Source of the DNA: Gammaproteobacteria bacterium
GTDB lineage: Bacteria > Pseudomonadota > Gammaproteobacteria > Steroidobacterales > Steroidobacteraceae
Assembly: GCA_947455595.1 (NCBI GenBank)
Contig: CANGOP010000016.1
Location: 1-64,000 of the forward strand
Reading direction: 5' to 3'
Length of the DNA: 64,000 nt
Position 1 is the first letter of the stretch, and every line of letters starts with the position of its first letter. Below are positions 22,007 through 46,749 of the stretch, in pieces. The position numbers and the translations under genes were made by a program. The notes beneath the pieces were generated by a model, which was not told where the DNA came from, did no database searches, and worked only from the letters and a program-made list of their open reading frames with translations.

Positions 22007-23059
22007 ATGAGCAACCGATTCGCCGACCTGTTGGCCCAACGCACCTATCTGCTCGCCGACGGCGCCACCGGCAGCAACCTCTTCGGCATGGGCCTCGTGT
22101 CAGGTGAAGCACCGGAGTTGTGGAACTTCGAGCATCCGGACCGCATCCAACGTCTGCATCAACTCTTTGTCGATGCCGGCGCCGACATCATCCTCACCAA
22201 TAGCTTCGGCGGTACGCGCTATCGGTTGAAGCTGCACGGTGCCGATGATCGAGTCCGCGAAACCAACCTCGCAGCCGCACAAATCGCGCGCAATGTCGCC
22301 GATGGCGCGAACCGCACCGTGTTGGTCGGCGGCAGCATCGGCCCTACCGGCGAGATCCTAGAACCGATCGGCCCCCTGTCCATCGCAGATGCGAAAGCTG
22401 CCTTTGCAGAGCAGGCGCGGGCGCTGGCTGAGGGTGGCGTGGACGTGCTGTGGATCGAGACCATGTCCTCGCGCGAAGAAGTAGAGGCGGCGATCGAAGC
22501 GGCAGCCGAAACCGGGCTCCCCGTCGTTAGCACGCTGTCCTTCGATACGAACGGTCGCACCATGATGTCGCTCACGCCGGCTGATCTCGCGGAAGTGGCC
22601 CATAAGCACCACCTGGCCGGTTGCGGCAGCAATTGCGGCGTCGGGCCATCGGAGTTGGTCGCTTCGATTCTCAATTTGGCCGCGGCCTCTGAGCCTAGCG
22701 CCGTGTTAGTGGCCAAGGCCAACTGTGGTCTGCCTCAGTACGTGGATGGTGCCATCCGTTACAACGGGACGCCCGAACTGATGGCCACCTACGTGCACAT
22801 GGCGCTCGACGCCGGCGCTCGCATTGTCGGCGGGTGCTGCGGCACGTCACCCGAACATCTGGCGGCGATGCGGGTCGCCATCGATCAATACGTGCCGGGC
22901 GAGAAGCCGACGGCAGAACGCATTGAGGCGACGCTCGGCCCGCTCACGCAAGGCGCTCGCGCTCAGCTGAGCGGACACTTGGATCGCGCCTCAGGCGCCG
23001 CAGCCGGCGCCACCTTGCGCCGGGGTACCGGACGTCGCGGGACGCGACCCGAGAGCTGA
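22007..23059 (+). CDS. Homocysteine S-methyltransferase, betaine-homocysteine type
   Basis: Zinc TIM-barrel methyltransferase that makes methionine from homocysteine; in betaine-dependent members the donor is glycine betaine. Zn ligands are visible: C210 in GSNCG and C277-C278 in GGCCGT. The N-terminus ADGATGSNLFGMGL and the segment ILTNSFGGTRYRL are typical. Its 350 aa is the length of bacterial BHMT-like proteins, and it lacks the cobalamin modules of MetH. The C-terminal 30 residues are Ala/Gly/Arg-rich and look disordered. It is convergent and adjacent to a tmpB-like gene whose predicted product is glycine betaine. The donor is inferred. Confidence 0.85.
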   Translation: MSNRFADLLAQRTYLLADGATGSNLFGMGLVSGEAPELWNFEHPDRIQRLHQLFVDAGADIILTNSFGGTRYRLKLHGADDRVRETNLAAAQIARNVADGANRTVLVGGSIGPTGEILEPIGPLSIADAKAAFAEQARALAEGGVDVLWIETMSSREEVEAAIEAAAETGLPVVSTLSFDTNGRTMMSLTPADLAEVAHKHHLAGCGSNCGVGPSELVASILNLAAASEPSAVLVAKANCGLPQYVDGAIRYNGTPELMATYVHMALDAGARIVGGCCGTSPEHLAAMRVAIDQYVPGEKPTAERIEATLGPLTQGARAQLSGHLDRASGAAAGATLRRGTGRRGTRPES

Positions 23060-23614
23060 TCAGCGCAGGAGCGCGGCGATCCGTTCGCGGTAGCTTGCGA
23101 GCGTGGGTGCGGAGAAGCCCTGCACTTTCCCCTGCTCGTCGCACAACCGCAGCGTGATCGCGTCGCGGTAATACGGGTTCGCCTCGAAAGTCTCCACTTC
23201 GGTCGGACTCATGGGGCCTCCCTGCAGCGACAGCGTGTGCACCGATGCCGGCGACAATCGCGCGAAATAATCCGCGTCTGTCGCGCACAGATAGCGCTTC
23301 GCCGCCACGTGCAAGCGAACGGGCTCCGTCACTGCCGGACCAAAATAAGGCGTCAGCCAGTCCGCACCCGTATGCTCGTGCTGCGCATCATGGACCCAGT
23401 CGGCTAAATTCTCGGGCACATCGACGACGAGATGTCCGACGTCATGCAAAAGCGCGGCAATGATCACCGTTTCCGGTGCACCTGCTTGCTCGGCAAAGTA
23501 CGCGCTTTGCAGACCATGCTCGAGCTGGGTGATCGCCTCGCCAAAGTAGTTGCCCTGGGCGCGCGCTGCATACAGGCGCTCGATCTCATTGATGATGGGG
23601 GGTAATGCACTCAT
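23060..23614 (-). CDS. tmpB: HD-domain mixed-valent di-iron oxygenase, TmpB/PhnZ-like
   Basis: HD-fold protein of 184 aa resembling PhnZ and TmpB, which use a di-iron site and O2 to break C-P bonds of alpha-hydroxyphosphonates. Ligands align by spacing with PhnZ: H33, H57-D58 (ALLHDVGH), H81, H102 and D159. Y23 and E26 in NYFGEAITQLEH match the PhnZ gating pair Y24 and E27. It follows the tmpA-like gene by 9 nt, and its ribosome site overlaps that gene's stop. By analogy with TmpB it would turn hydroxy-trimethylaminoethylphosphonate into glycine betaine plus phosphate. PhnZ proper, with 2-aminoethylphosphonate, is the alternative. Confidence 0.82.
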   Translation of the reverse strand: MSALPPIINEIERLYAARAQGNYFGEAITQLEHGLQSAYFAEQAGAPETVIIAALLHDVGHLVVDVPENLADWVHDAQHEHTGADWLTPYFGPAVTEPVRLHVAAKRYLCATDADYFARLSPASVHTLSLQGGPMSPTEVETFEANPYYRDAITLRLCDEQGKVQGFSAPTLASYRERIAALLR

Positions 23615-23623
23615 GGACTGTCC

Positions 23624-24742
23624 TTAGGGCAATACAGCCGCTTGGCTGAGCACGCTGTCACGGGTCAGATAGCAGCCCTGCAGATGACGAGGATGCCGTT
23701 GGCTGAAAAAGCCGGTGCGACCATGCAGGGTGCGGCGATTGTCGAAGACAACGAGTTCCCCATCCTGAAGGCGGCGGCGTAATTGGAAGCGCGGCTCCCG
23801 TAGTAAGGTGGCAAACGCCCGATAGGCTCGATAAAAGGCTTCGGTCTCCTCAGCTGACTGACGCTGCGGCGCGATCGAGCGATTGTTGTAGTGCACAGCG
23901 CGAACGTCGCCCTCCACGCTGAGTTCAATAATGGGCTTCACCGAACACAGGTCGGTATCCGGTGTGCGGTAGTGGAACGCGACCGGGGTGCGCGTCAGGA
24001 CCTCGAAGGCAGCCGTATCGATGCGACGCAAGTGCTCAGCCAAGGCGAGGCCATCAGCAAAGAGGCTGTCGCCACCATCGGGTGAGGCGACCAACACGTG
24101 CAGCGCCTGAAAACCGGGCACTGGATCGCGATACGGATTATCCGTATGCAGCCCCAAGCCCAAATCGGTGAAGGCAAGATTTTCGGGGCTCGGTACCGCC
24201 TTTACGTCGAACAGTCGCCCGTAATTGGTGTGTGGCACTTCGCCCATCAAAGAGCAAGTCGACACGACCGTCCCCTCGACGCTCGGCACACCCGCCAAAA
24301 ACGCGAGGCCATCCCGCGCCAACCGTCGCAACCACACACCACGCGTGGCCGCATCGGCCGTGAACTGTGCATGATCGACCCAGGCGAAGTCGCGCATGGC
24401 CTCCAGCCGTGCGCCTTCCAGCCACGGATGACGATCGAGCTCCGCGCGCACCGCCCGTAGGGGCCCCAGTGTCGCCCGCAACCAGGAAAGGGGACGGCTG
24501 AAGGCTGGCACGCCCTGAGCGAACTGCACACACAAGGCATCGCCCTTCACTTCTGCGGACGAGATACACACGTCAGCCGGCAGATCCATGATGTCGATCA
24601 AGCGCTGGCCATTGGCGTGACGATCTTCTGACCGATTATCGGCGAGCCACAGCGCCGCAAATTCGCCGCGAACGCCGTGACCCCAATCGAGCAGGACACG
24701 ATTGTTTTCCACCGTGAGGTAGACGCTGGCGGTCGAGGTCAT
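23624..24742 (-). CDS. tmpA: Fe(II)/2-oxoglutarate hydroxylase, TmpA-like (gamma-butyrobetaine hydroxylase family)
   Basis: TauD-type dioxygenase of 372 aa with the N-terminal DUF971/GBBH-like domain (residues about 12-85). The iron triad is H199-x-D201 (LHTDNPYRD) and H340 (RTLHGR). Members are usually annotated as gamma-butyrobetaine hydroxylase, but pairing with a PhnZ-type HD oxygenase is the arrangement of TmpA, which hydroxylates 2-trimethylaminoethylphosphonate. The start at 24742 overlaps the transporter stop by 4 nt. The N-terminal segment WLADNRSEDRHANGQR lacks the Cys zinc ligands found in animal BBOX. The substrate is inferred from context. Confidence 0.8.
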   Translation of the reverse strand: MTSTASVYLTVENNRVLLDWGHGVRGEFAALWLADNRSEDRHANGQRLIDIMDLPADVCISSAEVKGDALCVQFAQGVPAFSRPLSWLRATLGPLRAVRAELDRHPWLEGARLEAMRDFAWVDHAQFTADAATRGVWLRRLARDGLAFLAGVPSVEGTVVSTCSLMGEVPHTNYGRLFDVKAVPSPENLAFTDLGLGLHTDNPYRDPVPGFQALHVLVASPDGGDSLFADGLALAEHLRRIDTAAFEVLTRTPVAFHYRTPDTDLCSVKPIIELSVEGDVRAVHYNNRSIAPQRQSAEETEAFYRAYRAFATLLREPRFQLRRRLQDGELVVFDNRRTLHGRTGFFSQRHPRHLQGCYLTRDSVLSQAAVLP

Positions 24743-26067
24743 TCGGAAGCTCCTTCCGACAGACGCATCGTCTGCCGCTGTGTGAGGTACATCAGGCCGG
24801 CGGCGAGCGCCGAGGCGGTCGCGACACAAGCAAGACCGATGAACACGCCGCGCCAACCAAACGCCACTGCGATGCGAGCCACACCGGCCCCAGCAAGCGT
24901 GCCGCCTAGATAACCGACGCCATCGATGAGGCCGGAGGCCAAGGCGCCACCGCGTGCGCCACCGAAGTCGAGCGCAAACGCCCCGCCTAGATACGAGTAG
25001 GGACCCAACAGGCAGAAAGCGACGAGCCCGATGAGGCACACCGTCGCACCCCGGCCGATCAGCGCCGGCTCCAATGCGTAGAGCGCGATCAGCACCAGCG
25101 CAGTCGCGACGAGCCCGATGAAGAGCAACGTCGGGCGGCCATTCACACCGAGTCGATCACCGGCCCAACCGGTGAGCAGCACTGAAACAGCACCCACAGC
25201 TGGAAAAACCGCCGAGAGACTCGCCGCACTGGCGGCATCAAAGCCTACGGAGTCTTTCAAAAAGACCGGCATCCAGACGTTGAAGGCTTCGCGTACCACC
25301 GTGCACCCGAAGGAGAGGACGCACACGAGACGGAAGGAGCGACTCAGAAGCAGTGGACGCAACCAGGCGGCCCACGTGAGACGTCCCGCAACGGGCGGCT
25401 CCTCTGCATAGAGATTGACGGGGTTCGTGGTCGTAGGCGCAAAGCCAAGCTCCGTGCGCGTTTCGCGCAACAAAACGAGGTTTAGGATAAAGAGCGCGCC
25501 CAGCACCAACGCCGCGAAGCGAAACAAATCGACCCATGTCGCCCCGTGCGCAAGCAGCGCCCCCATCGACTGGCGCGCCAACGCATCGCCTACGAGGTAG
25601 CTCACCGAGAGAATTCCGATCACGGTGCCGTGCGTATGGAAATCAAACCAACGGCCCGTCACCTTGATCAGCCCCGCCCAGCCGACCGACTGCGTGAGAC
25701 GGTTGCCCACCCACGCCACCGTGAACAACGGCAATCCCGCCCCGAAGGAGAAGAGCAGGGTAAACAATGCGGCACCGCCCAATGCCAACAAGAAGGAGCG
25801 GCGCCCGCCCCACAGATCACCGAGGCCACCGAGCGCCATCTTACCGATCGCATAGGCCAGCACACCGAGGGAATAGACTTCACCGAGGCGCACCACCGCC
25901 TCATCCGCCGACACGCCGCGCTGCCGTAGGGCGTCGGCCAAGAGTGGCATGGCCACTGAAAAATTCGCGCGACCGAAATAACAGGCCGCGTAGCCGCCGA
26001 AGAGCAGCATCACGATGAGCACCTGGCGCGGCAGCAACGCTCGATCGCGAACCGGACCCGTCGTCAT
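24739..26067 (-). CDS. MFS organophosphate (GlpT/UhpT-type) transporter, candidate phosphonate carrier
   Basis: Twelve-helix carrier of the organophosphate:phosphate antiporter (OPA) family. Family marks are GGYAACYFGRANFSVAMPLL at the start, the RLTQSVGWAGLIKVTGRWF segment in the middle, and LLGPYSYLGGAFALDFGG with GLIDGVGYLGG late in the protein. I start at the ATG at 26067, which follows GAGGAG; a shorter-spaced upstream start is less likely. It is the first gene of a three-gene overlapping operon with tmpA and tmpB, so it probably imports the phosphonate (or a phosphate-bearing analogue) in exchange for phosphate. Confidence 0.85.
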   Translation of the reverse strand: MTTGPVRDRALLPRQVLIVMLLFGGYAACYFGRANFSVAMPLLADALRQRGVSADEAVVRLGEVYSLGVLAYAIGKMALGGLGDLWGGRRSFLLALGGAALFTLLFSFGAGLPLFTVAWVGNRLTQSVGWAGLIKVTGRWFDFHTHGTVIGILSVSYLVGDALARQSMGALLAHGATWVDLFRFAALVLGALFILNLVLLRETRTELGFAPTTTNPVNLYAEEPPVAGRLTWAAWLRPLLLSRSFRLVCVLSFGCTVVREAFNVWMPVFLKDSVGFDAASAASLSAVFPAVGAVSVLLTGWAGDRLGVNGRPTLLFIGLVATALVLIALYALEPALIGRGATVCLIGLVAFCLLGPYSYLGGAFALDFGGARGGALASGLIDGVGYLGGTLAGAGVARIAVAFGWRGVFIGLACVATASALAAGLMYLTQRQTMRLSEGASE

Positions 26068-26155: not shown

Positions 26156-26935
26156 ATGTCCCACATTCCGCTCACGGCTCTCGTCACCGGCGCCTCGCGC
26201 GGGATCGGCGCCGAAATCGCCCGCCAGTTAGCTGCCCGCGGCGTTACCGTGGCCCTGCACTATGGCGCGAACGCAGACCTCGCCCGCGCCGTCTGCGACA
26301 GCCTGTCAGGTCAGGGCCATACGCTGCATCAGGCCATGCTCGAGAGCCCAGAAGCGGTGGATACCCTATGGGCGTCGGTGCTGCGGGCGCACCCGCGCGT
26401 CGACATCCTCGTGAACAACGCCGGTCTGTTCCGCGACCATCCCCCACTTCGCACCACCCCAGCGGATTGGCTCGCAGCCTGGCAACTAACGCTCAGCGCC
26501 AATCTCATCGCACCGGCGCAGCTCTCGCAGCATGCGGCCACCGCCATGGCACAACAGGCGCCCCGCAATGATCAATTCGGACGTGGGCGTCTGGTGCAGA
26601 TCTCCTCCCGCGGCGCCTTTCGTGGGGAGCCAGATTCCCCCGCCTACGGCGCTTCCAAGGCCGGCCTCAACGCGATGAGCCAATCATTGGCCAAAGCTCT
26701 CGCCCCAGCAGGGATCTATGCCTACTGCCTAGCACCGGGTTGGGTGGGGACCGACATGGCGCGCGGCCACATCGATGGACCAGGGGGAGCGGAGATACTG
26801 GCGCAGCATCCCCTGGGTCGGATTACGCGGCCCGATGAACTTGCCGCAGCAGCAGTGTGGTGTGCACTCGATGCACCGGCCGCTATGACCGGGTCTATCC
26901 TCGATGTGAATGGTGCAAGCTACCTGAGAACCTAA
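26156..26935 (+). CDS. Short-chain dehydrogenase/reductase (SDR)
   Basis: Classical SDR of about 259 aa: NAD(P) motif VTGASRGIGAEIA, NNAG, and catalytic YGASK. The ATG at 26156 directly precedes the fold's first strand; upstream codons look untranslated. It is divergent from the tmp-like operon across the inverted repeat and followed after 2 nt by a class V PLP gene, so those two form an operon. The substrate is unknown; an alcohol or aldehyde from the neighbouring amine/phosphonate pathway is possible but unsupported. Confidence 0.88.
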   Translation: MSHIPLTALVTGASRGIGAEIARQLAARGVTVALHYGANADLARAVCDSLSGQGHTLHQAMLESPEAVDTLWASVLRAHPRVDILVNNAGLFRDHPPLRTTPADWLAAWQLTLSANLIAPAQLSQHAATAMAQQAPRNDQFGRGRLVQISSRGAFRGEPDSPAYGASKAGLNAMSQSLAKALAPAGIYAYCLAPGWVGTDMARGHIDGPGGAEILAQHPLGRITRPDELAAAAVWCALDAPAAMTGSILDVNGASYLRT

Positions 26936-26937
26936 GT

Positions 26938-28107
26938 ATGACACTCGATATCCACCAACTGCGTCGCGACACGCCGGGCTGCACACAGCGGATCCATTTC
27001 AACAATGCGGGGGCGGGACTCATGCCCAATGCGGTGGCCGACGCGGTCCTCGCGCATCTGGACCTCGAGCGACGCATCGGCGCATACGAAGCCGAGGCTG
27101 CTGCCGCAGCAGACCTAGCGGACTTTTATCAAGCCTTTGGCGAGCTCTTGCATTGCCGCGCCGATGAAGTCGCATGGATCGAAAACGCCACGCGAGCCTG
27201 GGATCTGGCTGTCCATGCCCTCCCGTGGACGGCTGGCGATCGCATCCTCGTACACGCCTCGGACTACGCCTCCAACCATCTTGCGCTGCTGCAATTGGCA
27301 AAGCACCGTGGTGTCGAGCTCGACACTGTTCCTTCCGCTCCCGACGGCACGGTCGATGTCGAAGCGCTCGCCGCGGCGATCGGCCCGCGCACGCGGGCGA
27401 TCATGGTGACGCACTCGCCCACCCACGATGGGTTGATCAATCCGGTACACGCCATCGGCGCCATCGCCAAGCAACACGGTCTCTGGTTCGTGCTCGATGG
27501 CTGTCAGTCGGTCGGTCAGGTCGAGGTCGACGTCAAAGCGATTGGCTGCCACATCTACTCAGGCAGCGGTCGCAAGTTCCTGCGTGGCCCAAGAGGGACT
27601 GGGTTCTTGTATGTGGATGTGGATCTGTTAGCGATCATGGAGCCTCCCTTCATTGACCTGCATGCGGGCAGTGTTGAAGGGAGCGGCTATCGCTTTATCG
27701 ACGGCACCCGGCGTTTCGAATGTTGGGAAACGTATGTCGCCGGTCGCTTGGGTGAACGCGCAGCCGTGCGCTATCTACTCTCATTGGGCGTCACTCAGGT
27801 CACGACCCGCATCGCGCAACTCGCCGCGCGCCTACGCGAAGCGCTCGCTGCGGAAGCGTCCGTGACCGTGCTCGACCACGGAACTAGACGCGGTGGCATC
27901 GTGACGTTCATCTGCCGCGACGAAGCTCCGACGGCGACGATGCTGCGACTGCGTGCTCGGCATATGAATACGTCGGTTACGGGACCCAACGCCGCACCCT
28001 TGGCACCGCAATGGGCGACCCACGCCGGCGCCGTGCGCGCCTCGGTACACGCCTACAACACGGATGAGGAGATTGCGCAGTTCGTGGCCGCGCTGCGGGA
28101 GCGCTGA
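26938..28107 (+). CDS. Class V PLP-dependent aminotransferase / cysteine desulfurase-like protein
   Basis: Fold-type I PLP enzyme of 389 aa. FNNAGAGLMPNAV at the start, FVLDGCQSVGQ (Asp to the PLP ring nitrogen) and the PLP lysine in GSGRKFLRGPRGTGFLYV are clear; the last block is typical of the isopenicillin-N epimerase / CsdA-like branch. It begins 2 nt after the SDR stop codon. It lacks a convincing Cys-containing desulfurase loop, so a lyase, epimerase or aminotransferase on an amino-acid-like compound is more likely. Substrate unknown. Confidence 0.82.
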   Translation: MTLDIHQLRRDTPGCTQRIHFNNAGAGLMPNAVADAVLAHLDLERRIGAYEAEAAAAADLADFYQAFGELLHCRADEVAWIENATRAWDLAVHALPWTAGDRILVHASDYASNHLALLQLAKHRGVELDTVPSAPDGTVDVEALAAAIGPRTRAIMVTHSPTHDGLINPVHAIGAIAKQHGLWFVLDGCQSVGQVEVDVKAIGCHIYSGSGRKFLRGPRGTGFLYVDVDLLAIMEPPFIDLHAGSVEGSGYRFIDGTRRFECWETYVAGRLGERAAVRYLLSLGVTQVTTRIAQLAARLREALAAEASVTVLDHGTRRGGIVTFICRDEAPTATMLRLRARHMNTSVTGPNAAPLAPQWATHAGAVRASVHAYNTDEEIAQFVAALRER

Positions 28108-38196: not shown

Positions 38197-38219
38197 TATT
38201 GATTGCTTGGAGTCTGCCC

Positions 38220-39800
38220 ATGTCGACGAATCCCGAACGCCCGATCCGAGCCCGCGGCCGTGAAGCCCTGATGGCCGCCCGACGCTCCGGGGCGCGCTCG
38301 ACCGCGGTCCGACCCGGTCTGCAGGGCGGTCTCTATCGGCCGCTGTCGGATCACGACATGCGCCAGATCGCCGATACCGCGTACCGCATTCTGGAAGAAC
38401 TGGGCTTTGGCGCGTTTACCGACGAAGTCCGCGATTACGCCTTGGCCGGCGGCGCTCACCTCAACAACGAAGGCCGCCTGTGCTTCCCGCGGGCGCTAGT
38501 CGAAGACCTGTTGGCCGGCGCGAGTCGCGAGATCGTCTATCACGGCCGCGATGAAGCGCGGACGATTCGCTCAGGAGGCAATCGCGTGTACTTCGCGACG
38601 TCCGGCGAAGCGGTCCGCGTCGTGGATCCGGTGACAGGCCGATACCGGCCGTCGGAACTGCTCGATTTGTACGATTTTTTCCGGATGGCCGACCATCTCG
38701 ATCACATCGACTTCTGCGGTCAGACAGTGGTCGCCAACGACATCTGTGAAGACGCTCGACTGCACAGTCTCAATATTGCCTACGCAGGCACAGCGGCGAC
38801 GACCAAGCCCTTCAGCATTTCTCTTGCGGATCCGTCAACCGTTGGGGATGTCGAATCGCTGTTCGATACCGTGCTAGGTGGCAAGGGTCGCTTTCGTGAG
38901 CGCCCGTTTGCCGCGATCGGCGTGTGTCCGGTCGTCTCACCGTTACGCTTTGGTCCGGACACCTCCGCTGTGCTGTGCGAGGCCGCACGTCGCGGTCTGC
39001 CGATCTCCGCTTGTACCGCCCCGCAGTCCGGTGCCACAGCACCCGCAGCACTTGCAGGGGCCCTGGCACAGTGCACCGCCGAAGCCCTCGCCATTGTGGT
39101 GTTGGCGAATCTGATCAACCCCGGTCATCCGATTGATTTTGGTCCTTGGACCTTTGTCGCCGATCTGCGCACCGGAGCCTTCACCGGGGGTAGTGGTGAG
39201 GAGGCCATCCTGCAGGCGGCAGCCGCGCAATTAGCGCGCCATTTCGGACTGCCCGGCGTCGTCGCGGCTGGCATGACCGACGCCAAGCGCCCCGACTATC
39301 AGGCCGGCTACGAGAAAGGCATGACGATTGCGCTGTCCGCTCTCGCTGGCGGCAACATGATTTGCGAATCAGCCGGCATGATGGGCAGCCTCATGGGCTG
39401 CTCGTTGGAATCGATGCTCCTCGACAACGACCTGATCGGCGCGGTGCAGCGCACCTTGCGCGGCATCGAGGTCAGCGAGGAAACCCTGTCGTTTGATGTG
39501 ATCGCAGCAACCGTCCGCGGACCTGCACACTTTCTCGGCGCGCCACAGACGCTCTCCTTGATGCAGAGCGAGTACCTCTATCCATCGCTCGGTGACCGCA
39601 CGTCACTCTCCGAATGGGAGTTCCGCGGCTCGCCACATCTCATGGAGCGCGCCCGGGAACGCGTGGCGGACATCATGGCCCGCCATTACCCCGAGCATCT
39701 GGCGGCCGCAGCCGATGCCGAGGTCCGCAGTCGCTTCGACATTCGTCTGCCGCAGACATACATGCGGCCCGGCAATGACCGCTGGCCGAGTCGCGCTTAA
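38220..39800 (+). CDS. Trimethylamine methyltransferase (MttB) family protein, non-pyrrolysine
   Basis: COG5598/MttB-family TIM-barrel methyltransferase of 526 aa. It reads through without an internal TAG, so it belongs to the non-pyrrolysine branch, which includes the glycine betaine:corrinoid methyltransferase MtgB. Recognisable blocks are ILEELGFGAFTDEV, CPVVSPLRFG, DFGPWTFVADLRTGAFTGGSGEEA and GGNMICESAGMMGSLMG. I start at the ATG at 38220 (GGAG upstream), not the TTG at 38199. The BetI-like repressor gene is divergent. No corrinoid-protein or reductive-activase gene is in the window. The substrate, perhaps a betaine, is inferred. Confidence 0.85.
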   Translation: MSTNPERPIRARGREALMAARRSGARSTAVRPGLQGGLYRPLSDHDMRQIADTAYRILEELGFGAFTDEVRDYALAGGAHLNNEGRLCFPRALVEDLLAGASREIVYHGRDEARTIRSGGNRVYFATSGEAVRVVDPVTGRYRPSELLDLYDFFRMADHLDHIDFCGQTVVANDICEDARLHSLNIAYAGTAATTKPFSISLADPSTVGDVESLFDTVLGGKGRFRERPFAAIGVCPVVSPLRFGPDTSAVLCEAARRGLPISACTAPQSGATAPAALAGALAQCTAEALAIVVLANLINPGHPIDFGPWTFVADLRTGAFTGGSGEEAILQAAAAQLARHFGLPGVVAAGMTDAKRPDYQAGYEKGMTIALSALAGGNMICESAGMMGSLMGCSLESMLLDNDLIGAVQRTLRGIEVSEETLSFDVIAATVRGPAHFLGAPQTLSLMQSEYLYPSLGDRTSLSEWEFRGSPHLMERARERVADIMARHYPEHLAAAADAEVRSRFDIRLPQTYMRPGNDRWPSRA

Positions 39801-43460: not shown

Positions 43461-44978
43461 ATGCCGACCCAACCGAACATCTTGATCATCCAGGCGGACC
43501 AACTCACCGCTGGGGCGCTCGCCTGCTATGGCGGCCAAGTCGCCAAGACCCCGCACATGGACCGCCTCGCAGCCGAAGGTGTGGTGTTTGACTCCTTCTA
43601 CACCAACAGCCCCCTGTGTGCGCCGTCGCGCTTTTCGATGATGTCCGGGCAATTGCCGTCGGCCATCGGCGCCTACGACAACGCAGCCGACTTCGCCGCG
43701 GATATCCCGACGTTCGCGCATTACCTGCGCGCCGCCGGCTACCAAACGTACTTGTCGGGGAAGATGCACTTCTGCGGCCCGGACCAACTGCACGGCTTCG
43801 AGCAACGGCTCACCACCGACATCTATCCTGCCGACTACGGCTGGACACCGGACTGGGCGCATTTCGAGCAGCGTCTGTCGTGGTATCACGTGATGAATTC
43901 AGTCACCGAAGCCGGCCCGTGCACGCGAACGAACCAGATCGATTTTGACGACGAAGTGGTCTATCAGGCGCGCCAAAAGCTCTTTGATATCGCGCGTAGC
44001 AAGGACGAACGGCCGTTCTGCATGGTCGTCTCGATGACACACCCCCACGATCCCTACACCACGCCGCAGGAGTATTGGGATCGCTATGCCGATGCGACCA
44101 TCGATCCGCCCACGGTATCGATGACGTTTGATGAGATGGACCCGCATTCGAAACGCATTCATCACGTCATCGGTCTCGGCGAGAAAAGCCCAACCGCCGA
44201 GCAGATCATCGACGCGCGCCGCGCCTACTACGGCTCGATCGCCTACGTCGACGATCAGGTCGGCGCGCTCGTGAAGACTCTGAAAGACGCGCGCCTGTCG
44301 GACAACACCATCGTGATCGTGACGTCCGACCACGGCGACATGCTCGGTGAGCGCGGATTGTGGTTCAAGATGACTTTCTTCGAAGGCGGCTGTCGCATCC
44401 CACTGATCGTGCATGCGCCGCAGCACTACGCACCACATCGGGTCGCCACCCACGCCTCACTCGTGGACCTGCTGCCCACCTTGGTGGAGATGGGTACCGG
44501 TGAGCCGTTCCAAGCGATTGTCCCCATCGAGGGGCAAAGCCTCGTACCGGCCCTGAAGGGAAGTCCGGTACGCGACGAGGTGATCGGTGAATTCATGGGC
44601 GAGGCGTCGATTGCACCGATCATCATGATCCGCCGAGCTACTCAGAAGTTCATCCACTGCCCCGTAGATCCGGATCAGCTGTATGACCTTCAGACCGATC
44701 CGTTGGAACTCCACAATCTCGCCCAAGAACCGGCTTATGCGGCCGTGGTCACCGCTTACCGGGCGGAGATTGCCGAGCGCTGGGATCTCGATGGCCTGCA
44801 TCACAGCGTGCTGGCTAGCCAGCGACGCCGCCACTTCGTTTACGATTCGCTCCGCCAAGGGCGCTATACGCCCTGGGACCACCAACCGTTCCAGGATGCC
44901 ACGAAGGCCTATATCCGTAATGATCAGGAACTCAATGACCTCGAGGCGATGGCCCGCTTTCCGCGTCTGGGCGCTTAG
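43461..44978 (+). CDS. betC: Choline-sulfatase
   Basis: Type I sulfatase of 505 aa that releases choline from choline-O-sulfate. The formylglycine Cys is C53 in CAPSR; metal and substrate residues lie in IIQADQL, SGKMHFCGPDQLHGFEQRL and VTSDHGDMLGE. The C-terminal part (SVLASQRRRHFVYDSLRQGRYTPWDH) is the choline-sulfatase tail that separates BetC from other sulfatases. I start at the ATG at 43461; upstream codons do not resemble the family. It has no signal peptide. The choline-type transporter gene follows and overlaps it by 44 nt. Confidence 0.93.
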   Translation: MPTQPNILIIQADQLTAGALACYGGQVAKTPHMDRLAAEGVVFDSFYTNSPLCAPSRFSMMSGQLPSAIGAYDNAADFAADIPTFAHYLRAAGYQTYLSGKMHFCGPDQLHGFEQRLTTDIYPADYGWTPDWAHFEQRLSWYHVMNSVTEAGPCTRTNQIDFDDEVVYQARQKLFDIARSKDERPFCMVVSMTHPHDPYTTPQEYWDRYADATIDPPTVSMTFDEMDPHSKRIHHVIGLGEKSPTAEQIIDARRAYYGSIAYVDDQVGALVKTLKDARLSDNTIVIVTSDHGDMLGERGLWFKMTFFEGGCRIPLIVHAPQHYAPHRVATHASLVDLLPTLVEMGTGEPFQAIVPIEGQSLVPALKGSPVRDEVIGEFMGEASIAPIIMIRRATQKFIHCPVDPDQLYDLQTDPLELHNLAQEPAYAAVVTAYRAEIAERWDLDGLHHSVLASQRRRHFVYDSLRQGRYTPWDHQPFQDATKAYIRNDQELNDLEAMARFPRLGA

Positions 44979-46749
44979 CCTCGCGGCCGCACTTGGCATC
45001 GCGCTTGCAGGCCGTACGAGCGCGGCCGGCGATCCCGCATCCTGTCAGGAAGTGCATTTTGCGGACGTCGGTTGGAGCGACGTGACCGCCACGACGTCAC
45101 AGGTGATGACCACGCTGGAGGATCTCGGTTATACGCCGCGTGCAACGCTCGTGTCGGTACCCGTGACTTACGAGTCGATGAAAGCGGGCCGAATCGACGC
45201 ATTTTTGGGCAACTGGATGCCGGCGCAGGTCGATACCCGACGTCCCTACATCGAAGGTGGCTCGATTGAAATTGTCCGGGCCAATCTGACCGGCGCGAAG
45301 TTCACCCTCGCCGTGCCAGATTACCTCTATGCCGCGGGCCTCCACGACTTCCGTGATATCCGCCGTTTTGCCGATGCGCTGGGGCGTCGCATCTATGGCA
45401 TTGAGCCCGGGAACAACGGCAATCGGATCGTCCAAGGGTTGATCGATCAGAACGCGTTTTCCTTGGGTGACTTTCGGCTGATTGATTCGAGCGAACAGGG
45501 CATGCTCGCCGAAGTCGATCGCGCCATCGCCGCACGCGCACCGATTGTTTTTCTCGCGTGGGAGCCCCACCCGATGAATATGCACTTTTCCATCCGCTAT
45601 CTGACGGGTGGGGATGCAACCTTCGGCCCCAACTATGGCGGCGCCACAGTCTGGACGCTTGTCCGGCAGGGCTTGGCGCAGCGCTGCCCAAACCTCGGTC
45701 GGCTGCTGACCAATATCGAATTCACCACACGTGGCGAAGACGAGGTCATGCTAGATATCCAGAGCGGCACGCCGGCAGAGACAGCAGCCCGACGCTGGCT
45801 TAACGCCCATCCGCAGGTTCGCGCCAGTTGGCTCGAAGGCGTCACCACCTTTGATGGCCGACCACCCGAGACCCATGCCACGGCGCGCCATGTGCTCTCA
45901 ACCGATGCGGTGGAGACTTTTTTAACAGCGCATAAGATTCCCGTGGGCGTCGCCATCGCTAGTGCCATCGATGCGATCAAATTACGAGGTGCCGGGATCT
46001 TCGGCGGGATCTCAGCAGCTACCAACGGCGCCGTGGCCTTGTCAGTCAAGGCACTGCGCAGTGTGCCGGCGACGGTGATGGTCACCGTCTTCGCGTTGCT
46101 TGCCTGGGTGCTGCAACGCTCATGGAAGCTCGTACTTTTCGTGGCCGCCGCGTTGCTCTTCATCATCAATCAAGGCTACTGGTCCGCAACACTCGAGACG
46201 CTCGCGCTGGTAATCGTGGCCGCACTGGTCACGGTCGCGCTCGGGATTCCGCTCGGCATCCTCGCCGCACACCGACCTCGGCTGCATGCGGCGCTACGGC
46301 CCGCTCTGGACCTCATGCAGACTCTGCCAACCTTTGTCTACTTGATCCCGACTCTCGTACTGTTCGGTCTGGGTGTCGTGCCCGCCATCATCTCGACGGT
46401 CATCTTTGCCCTGCCCGCCCCGGTGCGACTTACGCAGTTGGGGATCTCGTCCACGCCGAAGGCGTTGCTGGAAGCGGGTGATGCCTTTGGGGCAACGCCG
46501 TGGCAGCGCTTGATCAAGATTGAACTGCCCTCGGCGCTACCGCTGATCCTCGAAGGGGTAACACAGTGCATCATGCTGTGCCTATCGATGGTGGTCATTG
46601 CGGCACTCGTCGGCGCCGGCGGATTGGGTGTCCCCGTCGTGCGCGCCCTCAACACTGTGCAAGTTGGCATGGGCTTTGAGGCGGGGCTGGCCATCGTGCT
46701 TTTGGCAATTGTGCTGGACCGCATCTCGCGCCGCCGCGGCAAGCGCTAG
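44935..46749 (+). CDS. Fused choline/betaine-binding protein and ABC permease (ChoX-ChoW type)
   Basis: Single 604-aa protein. After a signal peptide (residues about 1-31) comes a ChoX/OpuAC-like binding domain (about 32-320): VHFADVGWSDVTATT, LGNWMPAQ and VFLAWEPHPMN carry the aromatic residues that usually box quaternary ammonium groups. About seven hydrophobic helices follow, with the permease motif EAGDAFGATPWQRLIKIELPSALP. The ATG at 44935 lies inside betC's end, with AGGA 5 nt upstream. No ATPase (ChoV/OpuAA) gene is present on either side. It probably imports choline, choline sulfate or glycine betaine. Confidence 0.87.
   Translation: MTSRRWPAFRVWALSLAAALGIALAGRTSAAGDPASCQEVHFADVGWSDVTATTSQVMTTLEDLGYTPRATLVSVPVTYESMKAGRIDAFLGNWMPAQVDTRRPYIEGGSIEIVRANLTGAKFTLAVPDYLYAAGLHDFRDIRRFADALGRRIYGIEPGNNGNRIVQGLIDQNAFSLGDFRLIDSSEQGMLAEVDRAIAARAPIVFLAWEPHPMNMHFSIRYLTGGDATFGPNYGGATVWTLVRQGLAQRCPNLGRLLTNIEFTTRGEDEVMLDIQSGTPAETAARRWLNAHPQVRASWLEGVTTFDGRPPETHATARHVLSTDAVETFLTAHKIPVGVAIASAIDAIKLRGAGIFGGISAATNGAVALSVKALRSVPATVMVTVFALLAWVLQRSWKLVLFVAAALLFIINQGYWSATLETLALVIVAALVTVALGIPLGILAAHRPRLHAALRPALDLMQTLPTFVYLIPTLVLFGLGVVPAIISTVIFALPAPVRLTQLGISSTPKALLEAGDAFGATPWQRLIKIELPSALPLILEGVTQCIMLCLSMVVIAALVGAGGLGVPVVRALNTVQVGMGFEAGLAIVLLAIVLDRISRRRGKR

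Follow-up and report, generated by a model that had tools for sequence, protein, structure and literature searches.

The stretch of DNA analyzed here (the window) comprises the first 64,000 nucleotides of contig CANGOP010000016.1 (assembly GCA_947455595.1) from a gammaproteobacterium of the family Steroidobacteraceae. Its minus strand carries an operon (positions 23060–26067) that encodes an OPA-type carrier of the major facilitator superfamily (MFS; P0003), a TmpA-like dioxygenase (P0002), and a TmpB-like HD-domain oxygenase (P0001) (Table 1). The original prediction, made from the letters alone, had described a three-gene operon joined by a 4-nt overlap and a 9-nt gap. This layout is borne out, the coding sequences of the carrier and the TmpA homologue overlapping by 4 nt (24739–24742) and those of the TmpA and TmpB homologues being separated by 9 nt, and the arrangement is not a product of chance because the same trio, in the same order, is found in 15 of the 18 regions fetched from relatives. 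The prediction had also matched the operon to the TmpA/TmpB pathway for 2-trimethylaminoethylphosphonate (TMAEP), with a GlpT-type carrier; this match is supported, with all of the scores below the NCBIfam cut-offs. We read the operon, with a probability of about 0.7, as a dedicated uptake-and-cleavage unit for TMAEP or a very close N-methylated aminoethylphosphonate; TMAEP is the presumed exact substrate.

Table 1. Features of the operon and of the adjoining gene (window coordinates).
Feature	Position	Strand	Remarks
OPA-family (GlpT/SLC37-type) MFS carrier, predicted phosphonate importer (P0003)	24739–26067	−	442 aa, ATG
TmpA-like Fe(II)/2-oxoglutarate dioxygenase (P0002)	23624–24742	−	372 aa, ATG
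HxD iron-binding motif H199-D201 of TmpA	24140–24148	−	Residue alignment
Codons of N287 and R288, phosphonate contacts of TmpA	23879–23884	−	Alignment; roles from excerpts of PMC9296572
Third iron ligand H340 of TmpA	23723–23725	−	Residue alignment
TmpB-like HD-domain mixed-valent diiron oxygenase (P0001)	23060–23614	−	184 aa
YxxE loop (Y23, E26) of TmpB	23537–23548	−	Alignment; role from excerpts of PMC8177086
Betaine-homocysteine S-methyltransferase-type gene	22007–23059	+	NCBIfam NF005718, 468 bits (cut-off 338)

The dioxygenase falls within the TmpA clade

Among proteins of known structure, P0002 is closest to TmpA (PDB 6npb, E = 5.5e−67), followed by DfmD (1e−34) and gamma-butyrobetaine hydroxylase (BBOX; 2.5e−27). 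The original prediction had given it a DUF971+TauD architecture; the TauD part stands, as the only Pfam match at E ≤ 0.001 (residues 132–358), whereas DUF971 is not called at that threshold, although residues 16–130 can be aligned to the N-terminal portion of TmpA 6NPB. NCBIfam ranks the TmpA profile first for P0002. We dropped this ranking as proof of TmpA, because a BBOX-like enzyme from a carnitine cluster (L142) ranks likewise. The AlphaFold2 model of P0002 (pLDDT 57) was not used.

We placed P0002 in a tree of 96 rows (80 scanned loci, 12 plasmid loci, three references, and the window); the contig scan was run with patterns derived from relatives of the window and supplied the best 80 of 146 stretches that encode a relative, so the sampling leans toward the window. 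A clade of 87 rows (97/95) holds both the window and TmpA of Leisingera caerulea and includes rows above the TmpA cut-off of 400 (L136, 577; L114, 457; L110, 440); within it, the window's clade is a branch apart from L. caerulea TmpA. Outside are human BBOX and DfmD, both on long, weakly placed branches, three carnitine- or aldolase-linked Rhodobacterales enzymes (L138, L141, L142), two Rhizobium enzymes, L135, and L143. We looked for the outcome in which the dioxygenase clusters with true gamma-butyrobetaine hydroxylases; it clusters with TmpA instead (97/95), and by tree, residues, and profiles it neither groups with BBOX nor lies in a carnitine cluster.

The iron ligands proposed earlier, H199, D201, and H340, align with H202, D204, and H347 of human BBOX, which we take to be its iron ligands; P0002 thus keeps the facial triad, together with the 2-oxoglutarate (2OG) arginine (R352). 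The aromatic-cage positions, to which we assign the roles presumed for BBOX, are aromatic in P0002 (174, 178, 191, and 358) and in all nine rows outside the TmpA clade; the cage points to a trimethylammonium-type pocket and not to TmpA as such. TmpA binds the phosphonate with N187, N287, and R288 (excerpts of PMC9296572), and P0002 has N188, N287, and R288 at these positions. R288 is Arg in 86 of the 87 clade rows (the other is a gap) and in none of the nine outside rows (His in six; Ala, Thr, and Trp), and position 287 is variable among the clade rows (Asn 62, Ser 22, Thr 1, Pro 1, one gap). Because the rows are related by descent, the counts do not represent independent events.

The HD protein has the motifs of a TmpB-type diiron oxygenase

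The best match of P0001 among solved structures is TmpB (6npa, 3.3e−42), followed by PhnZ (3.1e−32); in NCBIfam, the Phn-HD family ranks first. P0001 contains the diiron motif (H33, H57, D58, H79, H102, and D159) and the YxxE loop (Y23 and E26). The residues listed in the original prediction were Y23, E26, H33, H57, D58, H102, and D159, all of which are conserved or nearly so, and H81, which is ruled out as a ligand: column 81 is His in 4 of 90 aligned rows and is otherwise any of 15 other residues, and the true diiron ligand is H79 (His in 90/90). The diiron-oxygenase motif, the YxxE loop, and the best structural match leave no sign of clustering with non-oxygenase HD phosphatases. In an unrooted tree of HD proteins, PhnZ, L130, and L131 split from the other 87 rows, including the window's (100/100). 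The tree sets P0001 apart from PhnZ, which by itself is no proof of the TmpB substrate.

Several relatives of the HD protein have unusual features. On an Asticcacaulis plasmid (L148, NZ_AP029026.1), a TmpB-like HD gene is located beside phnX and a gene for a TIGR03364 flavin adenine dinucleotide-type (FAD) oxidoreductase; its product has His at the E26 position of the YxxE loop. At three loci (L057:4888–6150, L058:7142–8383, and L069:4341–5585), TmpB is fused to a C-terminal HAD hydrolase domain; the best named families for the L058 fusion are phosphoglucomutase- and phosphatase-like, below cut-offs.

The carrier has the OPA fold and phosphate-site residues

P0003 has the OPA fold and phosphate-site residues of the GlpT/SLC37 family: its PDB matches are SLC37A4 (9e−17) and GlpT (1.8e−14), and its AlphaFold2 model (pLDDT 87) retrieves human G6PT (SLC37A4) as the top match in Foldseek, with GlpT at rank 19. 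Eight residues of the GlpT site, the functional roles of which we assume, have equivalents in P0003 (Y26, Y30, R33, Y72, K76, W130, R259, and Y386 for GlpT Y38, Y42, R45, Y76, K80, W138, R269, and Y393); all eight, including R33/K76/R259 (GlpT R45/K80/R269), are retained in each of the 14 aligned rows. P0003 and GlpT differ in that they are only 20.7% identical, GlpT K46, W161, H165, Y266, and Y362 are replaced, and an invariant Glu (E260) directly follows R259.

Genome neighborhoods link the carrier to carbon–phosphorus chemistry

TmpB is directly downstream of TmpA in 76 of the 80 scanned loci; of the other four, L078 and L098 end at a contig edge, and L101 and L118 do not. A search for TmpB in 98 genomes (own included; E ≤ 0.001) gave matches in 34, 19 of them at E of 1.3e−27 or better and the other 15 weak; 14 of the 19 strong matches come from the window's genus, which is represented by 15 genomes. 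The three fetched regions that do not contain the trio (L046, L048, and L049) lack both TmpA and the carrier. In the window-containing clade of TmpA, the carrier is present at 46 of 56 loci (44 upstream, 2 downstream). Two carrier-free loci (L101 and L102) are truncated at the contig start, leaving eight others: in L057 and L058 the upstream gene encodes an SDF symporter and a different OPA carrier is encoded downstream, L083 and L096 have another MFS gene upstream of tmpA, and no membrane gene is directly upstream in L062, L067, L075, and L094 by a crude hydropathy count. The carrier is present at 0 of the 24 loci outside the window's clade, of which L121 and L127 hold <0.6 kb upstream. At two loci (L114:2144–7646 and L116:2113–7622), phnW-phnA-phnY-tmpA-tmpB are contiguous on one strand, placing the pathways for 2-aminoethylphosphonate (AEP) and TMAEP in one apparent operon.

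To view the context of the carrier itself, we used a profile search of 200 genomes from the window's taxonomic family, which found 64 carriers in 51 genomes; the neighborhoods of 53 were viewed (47 in 30 loci and 17 further stretches, and 6 in the regions of relatives described above). TmpA is beside 36 of these; TmpB without TmpA in the stretch is beside 5 (the L222 stretch ends 0.2–0.3 kb past the carrier); and the other 12, without TmpA or TmpB, are in AEP-type loci, 11 with PhnW. PhnA and a strong PhnY occur in 9 of the 11 PhnW-bearing loci; the AEP-type exceptions are L209, cut at a contig end, and L207 and L211, without PhnA and strong PhnY. Representative PhnW, PhnA, and PhnY proteins from these loci exceed their NCBIfam cut-offs. 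Because 52 of the 53 carriers adjoin genes for TmpA, TmpB, or PhnW, that is, for carbon–phosphorus (C–P) enzymes, we predict that P0003-type carriers are a phosphonate-carrier subfamily; the earlier proposal that the MFS gene encodes the importer is strengthened accordingly by this count.

In a tree built by a quick method, the 12 AEP-linked carriers group together (SH-aLRT 100) and are nested among the TmpAB-linked carriers, pointing to a derived origin of the AEP-linked form; the carriers from an acidobacterium (L103) and Hymenobacter (L130) are outside. Identities of P0003 to the AEP-linked carriers are 48–56%, and 18 columns separate the two sets: 131, 132, 155, 257, and 384 are within three residues of an equivalent of the GlpT site, and 359 and 361 are five to seven away. 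In 398 genomes of the phylum (own included), P0003 finds only the window's genome at 1e−30 and a profile adds one; among plasmids it finds two records, one a Hymenobacter plasmid (L130) in which an HD oxygenase follows the carrier with no TmpA.

Some neighborhoods depart from these patterns. In L219–L223 TmpB comes directly after the carrier and TmpA is absent from the stretch; these carriers perhaps take up a phosphonate that is hydroxylated beforehand. L220 also has a GbcA-like Rieske gene nearby, which scores below its cut-off. L214 (4816–5946) and L217 (2890–4017) encode a second, divergent TmpA-like protein (~225 bits) on the opposite side of the carrier from TmpA. On Pseudomonas aeruginosa plasmid pF045_1 (L137, NZ_CP115240.1), a divergent TmpA-like/HD pair is near genes for a choline substrate-binding protein, choline dehydrogenase, and aldehyde dehydrogenase.

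A second aminophosphonate route in the genome

The host assembly is 88% complete. PhnW is found above cut-off elsewhere in the genome (482 vs 400.8), and a PhnWAY cluster for AEP (L231:3075–9125) has the arrangement phnY-phnA-TIGR03329-phnR / phnW, with all five over their cut-offs: PhnA, 612 vs 408; PhnY, 845 vs 636; the TIGR03329 aminophosphonate oxidoreductase, 730 vs 633; and the PhnR-type regulator, 300 vs 271.5. The idea that the operon is the only phosphonate system in the genome is thus refuted. No P0003-type carrier was found in the 18-kb stretch around the PhnWAY cluster, and P0003 is the only member of its subfamily in the genome at E ≤ 1e−60; on these sequence comparisons, P0003 may also import AEP for the separate cluster. 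PhnJ is not found in this assembly, and neither PhnE nor the phosphonatase PhnX is above cut-off, PhnE being the one family of ATP-binding cassette (ABC) importers searched.

The original prediction had placed the carrier in the role of the usual ABC importers. An OPA carrier in that role has a published precedent for AEP: AepP of Pseudomonas putida BIRD-1, a GlpT-related MFS permease that is likewise tied to phosphonate catabolism (excerpts of PMC8316502 and PMC9311074). For the window's genome, the contrast with ABC systems extends to the PhnE family.

Weighing substrate and direction of transport

Our assignment of the operon to the TmpAB pathway follows from the closest solved structures, the position of P0002 in the TmpA clade, R288, the fixed pairing with TmpB, the linkage of 52 of 53 carriers to C–P enzymes, the phosphate-site residues, and the OPA fold; the contiguous phnW-phnA-phnY-tmpA-tmpB genes of L114 and L116 and the second aminophosphonate route (PhnW, PhnA, PhnY, TIGR03329, and PhnR) were also counted for it. 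Several observations weigh against the assignment. P0002 is only 39.1% identical to L. caerulea TmpA and scores 332.3 with the NCBIfam TmpA profile (NF049936; cut-off 400), below which two trio-bearing relatives also fall (L042, 348; L103, 356); L142 from a carnitine cluster likewise prefers the TmpA profile to that of BBOX (252.9 vs 235.6); and the aromatic cage, common to the nine outside rows, does not discriminate TmpA. The identity of P0001 to TmpB (46.0%) is barely above that to PhnZ (43.0%), and its scores are below the cut-offs for both TmpB (NF049941, 191.9 vs 300) and Phn-HD (TIGR03276, 211.5 vs 214.6). The unrooted HD tree shows an early separation (90/94) between the window's group and L. 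caerulea TmpB with its three plasmid relatives; five HD proteins without an adjacent TmpA (L144–L148) are inside the window's group, nearer to P0001 than L. caerulea TmpB is. TmpB and PhnZ have substrate-contact residues in common (excerpts of PMC11203657). Finally, 6 of the 54 evaluable clade loci have neither a P0003-type nor another OPA carrier.

The same chemistry could act on another phosphonate, be it mono- or dimethyl-AEP, AEP, or a trimethylammonium phosphonate with a longer chain. Equally, the carrier could import aminophosphonates in general instead of being specific for TMAEP. We consider this unlikely, but it has points in its favor: both enzymes are below all curated cut-offs, the window's clade branches apart from L. 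caerulea TmpA, P0002 has F191 where that enzyme has Y190, the AEP-linked carriers are nested among the TmpAB-linked ones, and P0003 is the sole carrier of its type (E ≤ 1e−60) in a genome in whose PhnWAY stretch none was found; discovery of the PhnWAY cluster slightly raised this alternative and slightly lowered our preferred assignment. However, N188, N287, R288, and the aromatic cage are all kept, the PhnWAY cluster already covers AEP, and the known PhnY enzymes of AEP pathways belong to another dioxygenase subfamily.

Alternatively, the carrier could export the released phosphate or move an unrelated organophosphate; OPA carriers bind phosphate, and five carriers are beside TmpB without TmpA. 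This is improbable: the carrier accompanies different C–P pathways (TmpAB, TmpB alone, and PhnWAY), the slot upstream of tmpA is filled by other solute carriers in four of the eight carrier-free loci (SDF symporters in L057 and L058, MFS carriers in L083 and L096), and AepP, which is likewise related to GlpT, is required when AEP is the nitrogen source for growth (excerpts of PMC8316502).

It is scarcely credible that P0002 is a gamma-butyrobetaine hydroxylase accompanied by an unrelated phosphohydrolase in P0001; although plasmid records give relatives labels of this kind and the BBOX profile scores 280 with P0002, the tree position, R288, the pairing with TmpB in 76 of 80 loci, and the diiron motif with its YxxE loop all disagree.

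A proposed pathway from phosphonate to betaine

Gene order, homology, residues, and linkage are observations; substrate, product, and the direction of transport are predictions. With TMAEP as the predicted substrate, the OPA carrier would import the zwitterion, probably in exchange for phosphate or with protons, and perhaps AEP too. Judging from homology and active-site residues, the TmpA homologue would then hydroxylate C1 using Fe(II), O2, and 2OG, and the TmpB homologue would cut the C–P bond, releasing phosphate and glycine betaine. The betaine could enter the betaine and choline metabolism of the host, for which the candidates are the convergent betaine-homocysteine S-methyltransferase (BHMT)-type gene, a betA above cut-off in the genome, a choline-sulfatase gene (43461–44978), and choline ABC genes elsewhere in the window.

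The operon may therefore serve carbon, nitrogen, or methyl supply as much as phosphorus supply. Were phosphonate to be swapped for phosphate by the carrier, the cell would on balance gain betaine and not phosphorus. AepP bears on both sides: it is needed for AEP as nitrogen or carbon source, which fits a role beyond phosphorus, and it could also support growth on AEP as sole phosphorus source without other importers (excerpts of PMC9311074), which speaks against a strict version in which betaine and not phosphorus is gained. More tentatively, and as a proposal that we would rate well short of even odds, P0003 would represent an undescribed phosphonate-carrier subfamily, distinct from AepP, whose origin as an importer of TMAEP (or of aminophosphonates in general) was tied to tmpAB and from which a later duplication supplied phnWAY operons with a carrier for AEP; its cargo would be tuned by a few substitutions near the central cavity (131, 132, 155, 257, 384, and perhaps 359 and 361), and phosphonate/phosphate exchange would make the operon a betaine (carbon, nitrogen, or methyl) route largely independent of phosphorus starvation.

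Neighboring genes

The BHMT-type gene is convergent with the operon, its final base adjoining that of tmpB, and is a possible consumer of glycine betaine; it is present in 7 of the 15 trio regions of relatives. Divergent from the operon, positions 26156–28107 encode a short-chain dehydrogenase/reductase and a SufS/EgtE-like pyridoxal phosphate enzyme. Next to the choline-sulfatase gene, one open reading frame (44998–46749) matches both ChoX (401 bits, cut-off 379) and ChoW (372, cut-off 363) and is by these matches a predicted fusion of a choline-binding protein to its permease. A gene of the trimethylamine methyltransferase (MttB) family, with no in-frame stop, is at 38199–39800 (350 bits, cut-off 525).

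A promoter scan found none, and terminator-like sites number 5 (3.6 by chance). A Pho-box pattern has no match in the window with ≤3 mismatches (chance mean 4.1), and PstS is not found in the 88%-complete assembly; both results say little.

Comparison with known systems and significance

The closest known system is TmpA/TmpB of L. caerulea (6NPB–6NPD and 6NPA), in which, as in the window, an Fe/2OG dioxygenase is followed by an HD diiron oxygenase; the iron ligands, 2OG Arg, aromatic cage, N/N/R contacts, and YxxE loop are shared. The window's proteins differ in their modest identities (39.1% and 46.0%), separate clade, and scores below the NCBIfam cut-offs, and the window's operon includes an OPA carrier, in contrast to the operon of L. 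caerulea, which is described as having two genes (excerpts of PMC10574752). PhnY/PhnZ (AEP) and GmPhnY/GmPhnZ (methylphosphonate) share the HD oxygenase chemistry; PhnZ itself, like L130 and L131, is separated from the window's TmpB (100/100, unrooted tree). AepP keeps the GlpT phosphate-binding residues (excerpts of PMC8316502). A carrier that we call AepP-like from its context (L212, with LysR, PhnW, and TIGR03329 beside it) is 27% identical to P0003 and outside its group in the tree, L212 standing in for AepP in this comparison. The TmpA- and TmpB-like enzymes are new members of a known pathway, and the carrier is a new variant of the OPA phosphonate-permease idea.

Among the matches listed in the open-licence literature there is no described TMAEP transporter; the enzymes of TMAEP catabolism are known, and the carrier subfamily offers a concrete transporter candidate. 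The TMAEP-linked and AEP-linked paralogues could allow the difference in cargo to be mapped residue by residue, and the assignments could help to rename relatives that carry labels like gamma-butyrobetaine dioxygenase or HD phosphohydrolase. The host genome, with TmpAB and its carrier in one place and PhnWAY without such a carrier nearby in another, is suited to asking whether one carrier feeds both routes.

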